Notes under the pieces: generated by a model | What the model was told of the DNA's origin: nothing | Databases searched by the model: none | Seen by the model: the letters and a program-made list of their open reading frames with translations, nothing else | Assembly (NCBI GenBank): GCA_020161505.1 | Contig: JAIUNY010000003.1 | Coordinates: forward strand, 1-64,000 | Origin: Armatimonadota bacterium | Lineage (GTDB): Bacteria > Armatimonadota > Fimbriimonadia > Fimbriimonadales > Fimbriimonadaceae | Direction of reading: 5' to 3' | Length of the DNA: 64,000 nt | Part shown: in pieces, positions 2,169-5,710 of the stretch | Position numbering within the stretch: the first letter of the stretch is position 1 | How the letters are laid out: every line of letters begins with the position of its first letter | Position numbers and translations under genes: made by a program

Positions 2169-2945
2169 ATGTCGCGTCGCGGAGAGGAAATTCTGCTGCT
2201 TGCCGCTGCAGGCCTCACGGATAAAGAAATAGCTGATGAGTTGTGCATCAGCGTTCGTACGGTAGAGGGTCACTGGAGACGGTTAAGAGAGGAAACAGGG
2301 CAGCCCAACAAGGCTGGCTTGCTAGGACAGATGTTAGCTCAACGTCTGGCCCAGACCGAGCAGAACTTCACCCAGCAACTGGCGGATCTTGAAGCCAAAG
2401 TTGCCCACGCCGAACGCGAGAAAGAGGAGTTGCGACAAAGGCAGGAGCTGGCGGAAACAGAAGCCCGATTGCAGTCTCGCGTACTGCACAATTCTCTGAC
2501 CAAGCTCTACGACGAGGTGAATCGATTGCGAGACGCAAACAACGGAGCGGACGAACTGCGAGCCATTGTCCTGAAGAGCAATGTGCTGGCTTATCGTTGC
2601 GAGCTCGAAGAGCCGCATCGATGTCTGTTCATCTCTGAAAGCGTCCGGGCCCTTGGTTACCGACCAAGTGAATTCCTGCAAGCGGGCCTGCCGCTCTCGA
2701 CCCTGGTGCATCCCGAGGACTTTGCCGAAGTCTGGGCCAAATCTTTGATCCAACTTCGAGAGGGCGCGGAAAGGCTGGATCGCCGGTATCGGTTGATCTC
2801 GCGAAACGGCGATGTCAAGCATGTGATCGACCGGTGCCATATTGAACGACCCGCAGACGGCCCTGCTTCGATCTCGACTTTTGTCTTTGACATCACTCAC
2901 ATGGGCTCGGAAATCTTCACTTCCAATCGTCCGATGATCAAGTAG
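2169..2945 (+). CDS. LuxR-type HTH protein with C-terminal PAS domain
   Basis: A probable transcription regulator of 258 residues. A LuxR/GerE-type helix-turn-helix occupies roughly residues 3-45 (motif GLTDKEIADELCISVRTVEG). An extended, Glu/Gln-rich coiled coil follows (~55-125), then a PAS-fold domain (~135-255) containing LGYRPSEF and the PAC-like RLISRNGDVKHV and VFDITHM. LuxR HTH domains normally sit at the C-terminus, so this order is inverted. An in-frame GTG start at 2070 would add 33 low-complexity residues, but the -10 box at 2135-2140 argues for the ATG at 2169. The ligand and targets are unknown; the PAS domain could sense redox state, a small molecule or a partner. The gene converges on its neighbour and the two overlap by 8 bp. 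Confidence 0.75.
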   Translation: MSRRGEEILLLAAAGLTDKEIADELCISVRTVEGHWRRLREETGQPNKAGLLGQMLAQRLAQTEQNFTQQLADLEAKVAHAEREKEELRQRQELAETEARLQSRVLHNSLTKLYDEVNRLRDANNGADELRAIVLKSNVLAYRCELEEPHRCLFISESVRALGYRPSEFLQAGLPLSTLVHPEDFAEVWAKSLIQLREGAERLDRRYRLISRNGDVKHVIDRCHIERPADGPASISTFVFDITHMGSEIFTSNRPMIK

Positions 2946-3915
2946 ATTGCTCGGTGACGGCATGGGTGGAGAGTGTCGTAAGAGTCACCACGTATTCTCG
3001 ACCATCCTTCGTGCCCAGTCCGGCGAGAGTGCCATCCTCGGCAATCGCGGTGATCGCGGAAACGGTGATGCCCTGCGGCTCAATGACTTCCCCGCTGAGA
3101 ATGACGACCGTGCCATCGGCGAGGATGAGATAGTGACGAAGTTGTCCCTCGGCGTCTGTGCCAAAAGCGAGGATATTGCCTGATCGATCCGCGCCAATCG
3201 GCTGAGCCCTTTCTCCAAGCTGTGGCAGAGGCTCATACGCGCCCTCGGGTTTCCACCATCCAATCTCTTGCGTGCCGGAGGCATACCGAGAGGCGAGGAG
3301 CACGCCCCACTGGCTTTGGATCGCGACGGGGCGACGGTAAGCCCCATTGAGGCTCTCGATTTGCGGTTCCGCCCGGAGGATTTCCGCGTGAGTGGTGCGG
3401 AAGGCCGAGCCATCGGCGAGTTGACCAGCCACGATTCCATCCGAGTTGATGGCGAGGATGCTGGTGAGTTCCCCCGCCAGGAGTTCCGGCCGACCTGACT
3501 CCCAGACCACAGCCCGGTCGGCCTGCGATGCCTCGGCAGTGCCACCGATCAATCCGGGGTGTCCGCACGCTTGGGCGGAGGCTCGATCTGCCCGAGTCGG
3601 AGTGCTCAGATGCTGGAACCCTTCGACCGGGGAGAAGAGAAATGCTTCGTCTCCGAATCCGAGGTGGCCGCATACTCGTCCGTCGGGCATCACAGCGGTG
3701 GCGTACGAGGCGCGCGAGGCGAGCTTGCGGATTCCATCCGAAGCGGAGAAGGTGGCGACGAATGTCTCACCCGAAGTCGCTTCCGTGAAGGATCCGACAA
3801 CCGTTCCGTCCCGCCAAAGGCCAACGACAGAAAGATGGCCTCCTGTGACTTCACCCAAAACTCTAAAAAACCTATTGGTCGCACGAGGCGACATAACAAT
3901 CAACTGTTCGTTCAT
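2938..3915 (-). CDS. HAF-like repeat protein
   Basis: A 325-residue protein with recurring blocks of the form DGTVVGSF, DGRVCGHL, DGIVAGQL and DGTLAGLG. These resemble the HAF repeats of extracellular proteins and suggest a beta-rich repeat or propeller fold. No catalytic motif or clear signal peptide is visible at the chosen start. An alternative ATG seven codons downstream (MSPRATNRFF) is possible, as the upstream ribosome-binding site is weak. It converges on the LuxR/PAS gene. The function is unknown. Confidence 0.6.
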   Translation of the reverse strand: MNEQLIVMSPRATNRFFRVLGEVTGGHLSVVGLWRDGTVVGSFTEATSGETFVATFSASDGIRKLASRASYATAVMPDGRVCGHLGFGDEAFLFSPVEGFQHLSTPTRADRASAQACGHPGLIGGTAEASQADRAVVWESGRPELLAGELTSILAINSDGIVAGQLADGSAFRTTHAEILRAEPQIESLNGAYRRPVAIQSQWGVLLASRYASGTQEIGWWKPEGAYEPLPQLGERAQPIGADRSGNILAFGTDAEGQLRHYLILADGTVVILSGEVIEPQGITVSAITAIAEDGTLAGLGTKDGREYVVTLTTLSTHAVTEQST

Positions 3916-4125
3916 CCTGTTGGAAACGACTTGGCCCGACGGACAAAGTTGGATGGGGGCCGGCTCTCACACCGACCCCTGAACCTTCCACAGCCCGTTC
4001 CGCTGCTTCAGTCGCTCCTCTCTCTTGGCTCTGATTCGAGCCGCTTCCGGGGGTATGCCCCGAAACTTTCTCTTGAGAACCAGCAGATTTACGGGTCGCG
4101 AACCCTCCGTGTCTGCACGGTTCCA
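3916..4125. other. Intergenic, no supported gene
   Basis: No gene could be supported. On the minus strand, about 4110-3965 encodes a basic stretch resembling a small RNA-binding protein (…KRKFRGIPPEAARIRAKREER…), but the frame has no ATG, GTG or TTG start with a ribosome-binding site. It is noted only as a possible relic. Confidence 0.4.
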
Positions 4126-4134
4126 TGCTACAAT
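4126..4134 (+). promoter_or_regulatory. Extended -10 promoter of the putative structured RNA
   Basis: TGCTACAAT, i.e. TGn plus TACAAT at 4129-4134. The predicted start falls at about 4141, right where the first hairpin (GATGG/CCATC) begins. No good -35 box is visible, as is common with extended -10 promoters. Confidence 0.45.
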
Positions 4135-4140
4135 CCTGAT

Positions 4141-4599
4141 TGATGGACTGACGAGGTACTAACCCCGTGCCATCGGATTGTTTGTGCTCCTATATTGATT
4201 TCGACTGTATTGCCACTGAACAAGTGGTCGGCGTCGCAGGAAACGTCCGCCGACCAAGTGCTCTGCCAAGAGCGCTCCGTTCATGAAGCAGTCTCTCGAC
4301 CATTCCGTGCGCTTTTTCCCGCCACCTCCCTTTCGGATGGAAGAAGGAAAAAGTGACCGACAGCGAGGAAAACAACTGTCGGCCATCGGAGAGGTTTGTG
4401 CTTTTTTGCTCTTGTCCCATCGTGCTATGCCGCAGGACTCGTAGACCTTTCGGGTCTGCAAGTCATGATAAGCCCGTTCACTTCAGGGACTGATCCTCTC
4501 AGTCGCCCGTTAGGATCCGGTGGACAATGGATTGACGCACTGTAACCAGTGCAGCTCCTCTCACTCAATCCACCATCCGGATCCTACGCGTGGTTTTTT
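4141..4599 (+). ncRNA. Putative large structured non-coding RNA, unknown class
   Basis: No protein-like frame exists here, but perfect or near-perfect helices follow one another from a promoter to a terminator. They are: GATGG/CCATC (4142-4146/4170-4174); CACT+TGGTCGGCG with CGCCGACCA+AGTG (4214-4217, 4225-4233/4248-4260); GCTCT-gcca-AGAGC (4260-4273); CTTTTTCC/GGAAAAAG (4312-4319/4346-4353); CCGACAG/CTGTCGG (4357-4363/4376-4382); GACT..AGACC-tttcg-GGTCT..AGTC (4436-4464); ACTGA-tcctc-TCAGT (4489-4503); and the branched terminator arm. I compared it from memory with RNase P RNA, tmRNA, SRP RNA and 6S RNA: the conserved core sequences of these are absent. It lies upstream of kynA, so it could be a free RNA or a long leader, but the terminator and a separate promoter-like box before kynA favour a free RNA. 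Confidence 0.5.
4504..4599 (+). terminator. Branched Rho-independent terminator
   Basis: TAGGATCCGG (4511-4520) pairs with CCGGATCCTA (4577-4586). Inside it TGGATTGA (4528-4535) pairs with TCAATCCA (4565-4572), and an apical hairpin GCACTG-taac-CAGTGC spans 4537-4552. The lower stem can extend with mismatches to the T-run at 4594-4599. This is an unusually large and branched terminator, and it is part of the RNA described above. Confidence 0.65.
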
Positions 4600-4859
4600 A
4601 TTGTCAAAGTCGCCTTTCGCTCGTCTTCGCCTCTCGGCTCCAACTTGCTGCTTGCATGGCGATATGATACGGCACCCAGGATTTTTGTGCAATGCGTGAA
4701 ATTGCCCTACTTTGTCGCCGCCATCTGCTCGGCCAGATAGGCGATCCAGAGCCTCATTCCTCGAAAAGCCTCTGACTGAGAGAACTACCTGCGGGTTTTT
4801 ACGTGCATTGCCGCCTCATCACCTTGCTTGACCGCCACCACGACGAAGTCTCTTGGCCC
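4600..4859. other. Gap between the structured RNA and kynA
   Basis: No gene could be supported. A TATGAT box (4663-4668) and a 27-codon ORF (ATG near 4692, MREIALLCRRHLLGQ…) with an AGGA upstream are visible. The ORF has no Trp codons, so it is not an obvious tryptophan leader peptide. A T-run near 4796-4800 lacks a clear stem. Confidence 0.35.
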
Positions 4860-4865
4860 CATAAT
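4860..4865 (+). promoter_or_regulatory. Putative leaderless -10 box of kynA
   Basis: CATAAT ends 5 nt before the ATG at 4871, and there is no Shine-Dalgarno sequence. The spacing places the transcription start at or next to the A of the ATG. Confidence 0.45.
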
Positions 4866-4870
4866 CAGCC

Positions 4871-5710
4871 ATGACACGGGCGTTTGAAGAAACCATCCAT
4901 ACCGATTTTCCCAATCGACTGGATTACGCCACTTACTTGAGACTCGATTTAATCCTGCAGGCGCAGCAGCCCCTCAGCGATCCTGAGCACCACGACGAAA
5001 CCCTCTTCATCATCCAGCACCAAACCAGCGAGCTCTGGATGAAGCTCATCATCCACGAACTTCAGGCGGGGATCCGGTCGATTCAGAACGACCAGCTGGA
5101 GCCTTGCTTCAAAATCTTGGCCCGGGTGAAGCATGTGCAGCGGATGCTGTTTGAACAGTGGGCGGTGCTCGCCACCCTCACCCCAACCGAATACGCAGAG
5201 TTCAGAGGTGCACTGGGCCGGGCGAGTGGGTTTCAATCATGGCAATATCGGCATATCGAATTCCTGCTCGGGAACAAGGATGCCAACGCCCTGCGCGTCT
5301 TCAAGGATCGCCCCGACGAGCAGTCGGCCTTGGCGACCGCCCTCAACTCACCCAGCTTGTACGATGAATTCCTTCGCCATTTGGGGCGGCGCGGACTTCC
5401 CGTCCCTTCCGAGAGCGTCGAGCGATCCTGGCAGGAACCCTACGCGGCTCGCGAAGGCGTGCGGGATGTCTTCAAGATCATCTACGAAAACCCCGCCGCC
5501 CACTGGGACGCCTACGAAATGGCCGAGAAACTGGTGGATGTCGAGGAGCAGTTCAGCCTCTGGCGGTACCGACACATGCTCACCGTTGAGAGGGTGATTG
5601 GTCACAAAACGGGAACGGGCGGAAGCTCCGGGGTCAGCTTTCTGCGGAAGGCGCTGGAGATCCGGCTCTTTCCCGAACTCTGGGATGTTCGGACGGAGAT
5701 CGGCCGGTGA
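4871..5710 (+). CDS. kynA: Tryptophan 2,3-dioxygenase
   Basis: Haem enzyme that opens the indole ring of L-tryptophan to give N-formylkynurenine, the first step of the kynurenine pathway; cytoplasmic. The 279-residue length is normal for bacterial enzymes. Family signatures are all present: [19 protein letters not shown] (substrate Phe and distal His region), [17 protein letters not shown] (substrate Arg), and near the end [18 protein letters not shown] with the proximal haem His. The stop overlaps the GTG start of kynU by 4 bp, so the two form an operon. A kynurenine formamidase (kynB) is not in the window and must be encoded elsewhere. Upstream sits the structured RNA, then a leaderless-type promoter. 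Confidence 0.95.

Follow-up and report, generated by a model that had tools for sequence, protein, structure and literature searches.

A candidate structured RNA with opposing promoter-like sequences in a small chromosomal cassette of Fimbriimonadaceae

Comparative genomics has yielded candidate structured RNA motifs that are intergenic, non-coding and covarying, and that combine conserved helices with unpaired motifs (PMC2864571). Going by excerpts of two further reports, the OLE, GOLLD and ROOL RNAs (PMC12286853) and raiA (PMC11706538) extend over several hundred nucleotides, with many helices, a conserved core, and roles that are unknown or partly known. In excludon-type overlaps, transcription of the opposite strand runs against a long 5' leader (PMC7154746). 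RNase P RNA and tmRNA are likewise structured and similar in length to the RNA considered here.

The locus described in this study lies near the start of a 64,000-nucleotide stretch of contig JAIUNY010000003.1 (assembly GCA_020161505.1, Armatimonadota), the whole of which is referred to as the window. It shares all the above properties of the comparative-genomics motifs, but is limited to one genus-level clade of five lineages and matches no Rfam model. OLE, GOLLD, ROOL and raiA, as the excerpts present them, are its nearest counterparts in size and style; they differ from the present RNA, which lacks an Rfam match, is tied to one small chromosomal cassette and is probably a leader. The excludon resembles the arrangement proposed here, in which a long 5' leader would meet transcription of the opposite strand, with the difference that the present overlap consists of covarying structured RNA and that the overlapping transcription is predicted solely from promoter sequences. 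RNase P RNA and tmRNA have their genes elsewhere in this genome, and the present RNA is missing from two nearly complete genomes of the same genus. We regard it as a new structured RNA candidate of narrow distribution whose general kind, a large structured leader or non-coding RNA, is known; the promoter-like sequences facing each other around it are an unusual arrangement.

A structured RNA without a known family

A preliminary description, made from the sequence alone, had placed a large structured RNA that fits no recognised class at positions 4126-4600, between two coding regions. Rfam scans, relatives and covariation all bear this out. The stretch is intergenic, between a divergent gene for an uncharacterised HAF-like protein and kynA (Table 1), and positions 4138-4600 fold with a minimum free energy of -171.2 kcal/mol, compared with -142.6 +/- 5.4 kcal/mol for shuffled sequences (z -5.3; none of 100 shuffles as low). 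The covariance-model check that the preliminary description proposed matched no family anywhere in the window (4,227 families, Rfam 15, gathering cut-off), and a search of 3800-5000 at E values up to 10 returned two chance-level matches only (E 3.6 and 4). No tRNA or tmRNA was found in the window, and a scan of viral contigs with two patterns gave no match. The RNase P RNA (RF00010) and tmRNA (RF00023) genes, rightly said not to lie at this locus, are at C6:61068-61393 and C5:4709-5062, respectively; a misplaced housekeeping RNA was rejected because both genes sit elsewhere in the genome and because the RNA is absent from two relatives. The structured RNA is real, belongs to no known family and measures about 460 bases. 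Its extent had been drawn too short: on one side conserved elements extend as far as about 4692, and on the other as far as about 3956.

Homologues were sought with BLAST and with a covariance model built from the RNA core (R1). The core is present in five of seven genomes of the same genus (G001, G003, G005, G006 and G007), in the same position adjoining kynA, and is lacking from the nearly complete genomes G002 and G004. With the window's own genome there are six carriers, counted as five lineages, all of them Fimbriimonadaceae. These are the six carriers among 291 genomes of the phylum at E<=1e-28, and no homologue was accepted beyond the one genus. The next best match had an E value of 4.9e-4; this and other weak covariance-model matches in other genera were taken as chance, leaving 285 further phylum genomes without a convincing match.

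Several helices recur in the relatives with compensatory changes. In the core helices P5-P8, 14-15 pairs have changed on both sides, a number reached in none of 500 shuffles whether pairs or cells are counted, and the paired fraction drops to 33-50% in slid controls, so that compensatory change exceeds both kinds of control. RNAalifold on the full region, set against column shuffles, gave z scores from -6.4 (five lineages) to -11.2 (three lineages). P1, P9, P9b and P10 are present in all lineages, the last three built from quite different sequences. The conserved unpaired motifs, in minus-strand notation, are AGCACAAAC (two copies), GAGAGGAGC and CCUCUCCGAUGGCC. A predicted long-range pairing joins GAGAGG at 4557-4562 to CCUCUC, forming a pseudoknot with P9; G001 carries CCUUUC instead, with which the pairing is retained on the minus strand only. 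A short minus-strand frame (4386-4330 in the window) overlaps hairpin P6 in five lineages and is probably not protein-coding.

Table 1. Features of the locus in window coordinates
Feature	Positions	Strand	Basis or remark
LuxR-type regulator with PAS domain, third cassette member	2070-2945	plus	Pfam GerE and PAS_3
Uncharacterised protein, 325 aa, HAF-repeat-like by eye only	2938-3915	minus	Relatives in six RNA-bearing genomes
G+C-rich leader hairpin H3	3956-3979	minus	About 40 nt upstream of start codon
GAACGGGCU, second copy	3992-4000	minus	First copy at 4471-4479
GAGAGGAGC, second copy, nearer HAF-like gene	4014-4022	minus	GAGGAGC in four of five lineages
Imperfect palindrome, 18 bp, operator-like	4079-4096		31-32 bp upstream of plus -10 in five lineages
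-10 element TACAAT, just before P1	4129-4134	plus	TATAAT at same position in all relatives
Hairpin P1 (GAUGG/CCAUC)	4142-4174	minus	Kept in relatives; block alone favours plus in 5/6 genomes
AGCACAAAC, copy 1, conserved motif	4180-4188	minus	Comparison of relatives
Hairpin P5, A/U-rich stem	4310-4355	minus	Conserved; alone, strands about equal
Hairpin P6, loop CGUUUUCCUCG	4355-4384	minus	Paired cells 100% against 91.4% on plus; three pairs double-changed
CCUCUC, predicted partner of GAGAGG 4557-4562	4389-4394	minus	RNAalifold consensus
AGCACAAAC, copy 2 (GUUUGUGCU on plus)	4394-4402	minus	Invariant in five lineages
Hairpin P7	4414-4438	minus	Paired cells 100% against 86.7% on plus
Hairpin P8	4439-4461	minus	Six of nine pairs changed on both sides
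P9 domain, long stem 4577-4585/4512-4520 and 4565-4572/4528-4535	4512-4585	minus	Formed in five lineages
P10, inner hairpin of P9	4547-4552/4537-4542	minus	Formed in five lineages with differing sequences
GAGAGGAGC, conserved single-stranded, inside P9	4554-4562	minus	Core in five lineages
-10 hexamer TATCAT	4664-4669	minus	Conserved promoter pattern, also from simple scan; start expected near 4657
-35 hexamer TTGCAC	4687-4692	minus	TTGNNN-N17-KATMMT at same place in all six genomes, spacing exactly 17 nt
kynA, tryptophan 2,3-dioxygenase, neighbour outside RNA unit	4871-5710	plus	Kept in RNA-less G002 and G004

Strand, promoter-like sequences and operator-like palindrome

The preliminary description had read the RNA on the plus strand. 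Its structure stands, but that strand is probably wrong, as strand statistics, consensus energies and the conserved -35 and -10 sequences favour the minus strand. The test by base-pair statistics follows the idea of RNAstrand, as given in an excerpt of PMC1892782. For the same four helices, 88.4% of cells are paired on the minus strand and 82.1% on the plus strand. A tally of non-Watson-Crick pairs over all helices gave 19 A.C, six G.U and one other on the plus strand, which become 19 G.U and six A.C on the minus strand; the helix list was built by hand and chosen while reading the plus strand, and five of the 19 A.C are one A.C beside P6 that is identical in all lineages. RNAalifold energies are lower for the minus strand in five of six subsets, with A.C rare in the minus-strand runs, and five of the six genomes have the lower single-sequence energy on it, three of them by 14-18 kcal/mol; in the RNase P RNA and tmRNA of the same genome, used as controls, the true strand is favoured by about 8 kcal/mol. 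The plus strand is favoured by P1 and by the subset of G006, G007 and G003. Helices resemble each other on the two strands, so that a single-sequence, helix-by-helix strand call can err. The minus strand, leading away from kynA, is quite likely the transcribed one.

Beyond P9, about 80 nt beyond it in the window, all six genomes carry the minus promoter sequence TTGNNN-N17-(T/G)AT(A/C)(A/C)T. Directly upstream of the minus -35 lies a short palindrome-like conserved patch (4693-4705), which reads GTGATTTCAC in G001 and GGGATTTCCC in G006. At the opposite end, the promoter-like sequence that had been seen near 4126 is indeed present, as the plus -10 element of Table 1. The branched terminator with a T-run that had been proposed fared less well: the stem at 4512-4585 is real, but TTTTTT occurs in the window only, the relatives having at most a loosely U-rich tail after P9, and a terminator scan of 3800-5000 found no terminator-like site. 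Around the plus -10, G001 contains two further copies of TTTGTGCTC; one of these lies in the HAF-like leader, where it is fused to GCTCCTCTC.

The operator-like palindrome upstream of the plus -10 has the consensus CCNNGYA-N4-TRCNNGG and recurs genome-wide in the genus, with a further copy in the window at 2048-2065. With a matrix built from the RNA-locus palindromes alone, the best other sites near the cassette in G005, G006, G003 and G001 include one that precedes luxR and one that precedes kynA, and in three of five lineages the palindrome is common to the RNA locus, luxR and kynA. At other loci it is counted about 1.6 to 2 times as often as the control in G004-G007, with no excess over the control in G000, G001 and G003, and several of these sites precede genes for secreted-looking (PEP-CTERM-like) proteins. 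It is found also in genomes without the cassette. A site for the cassette's own regulator only was rejected, the palindrome being more widespread and its distance to a -10 varying at other genes. Since it occurs at other loci and in cassette-free genomes, the palindrome seems to serve as operator for a regulator of wider reach. Together, the plus -10 and the palindromic operator upstream of it suggest a regulated antisense RNA.

The cassette and the probable leader of the HAF-like gene

In the carriers, the RNA and the HAF-like gene are grouped next to kynA with the LuxR-PAS gene, whose true start is probably near 2169, and a conserved peptidase-like gene, named by eye, flanks the other side of this cassette where the contig extends that far (G003, G005 and G006). 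In G002 and G004 the peptidase-like gene abuts kynA, and all three members of the cassette are absent. In a kynA tree, drawn open, these two genomes fall within the carriers (support for the inner clade 91/89), which suggests that the cassette was lost from them as a unit. Because they lack all three members and keep kynA, the RNA belongs to the LuxR-PAS/HAF-like cassette and not to the kyn operon; a kyn-operon leader was rejected on the same two relatives. Of the regulatory link with tryptophan breakdown that had been raised, what remains is the palindrome common to the RNA locus, luxR and kynA; the RNA itself goes with the cassette. Elsewhere in the family, LuxR-PAS matches stand alone, lacking both the HAF-like gene and the RNA, and a second occurrence of the cassette there was discarded for this reason.

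The HAF-like protein matched nothing in Pfam or NCBIfam, and its predicted structure is of low confidence, indicating a beta-rich fold only. A fast-evolving protein here adjoins a slow-evolving RNA: the window's protein shares 18-26% identity with its relatives, next to a nearly invariant RNA core. Between the palindrome and this gene, hairpins H1-H3 fold better on the minus strand by 10-20 kcal/mol in six genomes, and RNAalifold on the leader gave z -5.2 for the minus and -3.3 for the plus strand. The minus preference of H1-H3, along with the lack of a terminator-like site in 3800-5000, supports one long minus transcript running from about 4657 into the gene. Both copies of GAACGGGCU are found in the window and in G006 and G005, and the upstream copy also in G007.

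Readings of the locus

The reading that we favour, at about an even chance, is that the structured stretch forms the middle of a folded minus-strand 5' leader of about 740 nt, which belongs to the divergent HAF-like gene, acts in cis and is opposed by a plus-strand antisense RNA. Covariation in five lineages, the minus promoter sequence, the better minus-strand pairing and co-occurrence in the cassette support it, and both the strand statistics and the synteny fit the HAF-like gene as the downstream gene that is kept on the same strand. Transcription would begin at the promoter at 4692-4664 and pass through 4600 to 4140 to the start codon at 3915, and the leader would control the HAF-like gene in cis. 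CCUCUC at 4389-4394 could swap partners, pairing either with GAGAGG at 4557-4562, which closes the pseudoknot, or with the GAGAGG copy at 4017-4022 near the gene. The plus promoter and palindromic operator inside the leader may give rise to the antisense RNA when the regulator is active or the operator occupied, and this RNA would adjust both the folding of the leader and the expression of the HAF-like gene; that the regulator is the cassette's LuxR-PAS protein is a guess. Two observations sit poorly with such a leader: the plus -10 is placed right at the beginning of P1, where a discrete plus-strand RNA gene would be expected to have it, and conservation of the core far exceeds that of the HAF-like protein, an odd pattern if the RNA is a simple cis-regulator.

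The first of these fits a rather unlikely alternative, in which a discrete plus-strand non-coding RNA of about 460 nt starts at the TATAAT under the regulated operator and ends at the P9 stem; it would act on the leader of the HAF-like mRNA or else in trans. Besides the conserved -10 with its palindrome at a constant distance, the P1 block and, in the window, the U-run after P9 argue for it, as do two patches of the RNA whose complements lie co-linearly in the HAF-like leader, with one in 300 shuffles as high in a combined exact-match test; these patches could equally be direct repeats in a minus-strand leader, and nothing could be learned from duplex energies of the whole RNA with the leader. 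The other strand is favoured by the base-pair and energy statistics, a conserved terminator is lacking, and the conserved motif's complement shows no enrichment, either genome-wide or near start codons. A trans-acting RNA with GUUUGUGCU as its seed was rejected: AGCACAAAC has 30 matches in the genome against 31 for the control, and 32 against 28 in G006. Outside the locus, AGCACAAAC occurs at the same position in one orthologous gene pair, inside the frame. A bolder idea, which we think unlikely, is a new class of large pseudoknotted bacterial RNA, transcribed on both strands from the conserved opposing promoters and working as a switch or a ribonucleoprotein with the LuxR-PAS regulator and the fast-evolving beta-rich protein. 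It is likewise unlikely that the regulated plus antisense RNA and the minus leader, which it would fully overlap, make up an excludon-like on/off pair in which both strands matter; conserved promoter-like sequences do face each other across the structured stretch in six genomes, but antisense transcription alone leaves the strong conservation of the core unexplained.

Two further readings keep to the minus strand. A stand-alone RNA, whether a ribozyme or part of a ribonucleoprotein, that is processed from the HAF-like transcript or ends before that gene would account for the invariant core, the pseudoknot-like long-range pairing, the A-rich conserved unpaired residues and the greater conservation of RNA than of protein; we consider it very improbable, as the scan for terminators found none between P1 and the gene, the leader hairpins continue on the same strand and the RNA is confined to one genus. 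That the conservation reflects protein coding, through the short frame beginning in the conserved CCGATGGC (MA-xxx-FPRCRS-x-FP), is hardly credible. This frame is present in all five lineages with several changes at third codon positions, but those are the covarying positions of P6, whose other arm alters amino acids freely; in G007 the frame stops at 17 codons and in G001 at 29, and no Shine-Dalgarno-like sequence precedes it.

The locus offers the lesson that the strand of a structured RNA is decided by G.U versus A.C pairs in its relatives. If confirmed, the leader or RNA would add to the large structured RNAs a family from the Armatimonadota, a phylum that has been little studied, and would do so within a clear genetic unit of regulator, RNA and protein that is missing as a whole from two relatives.
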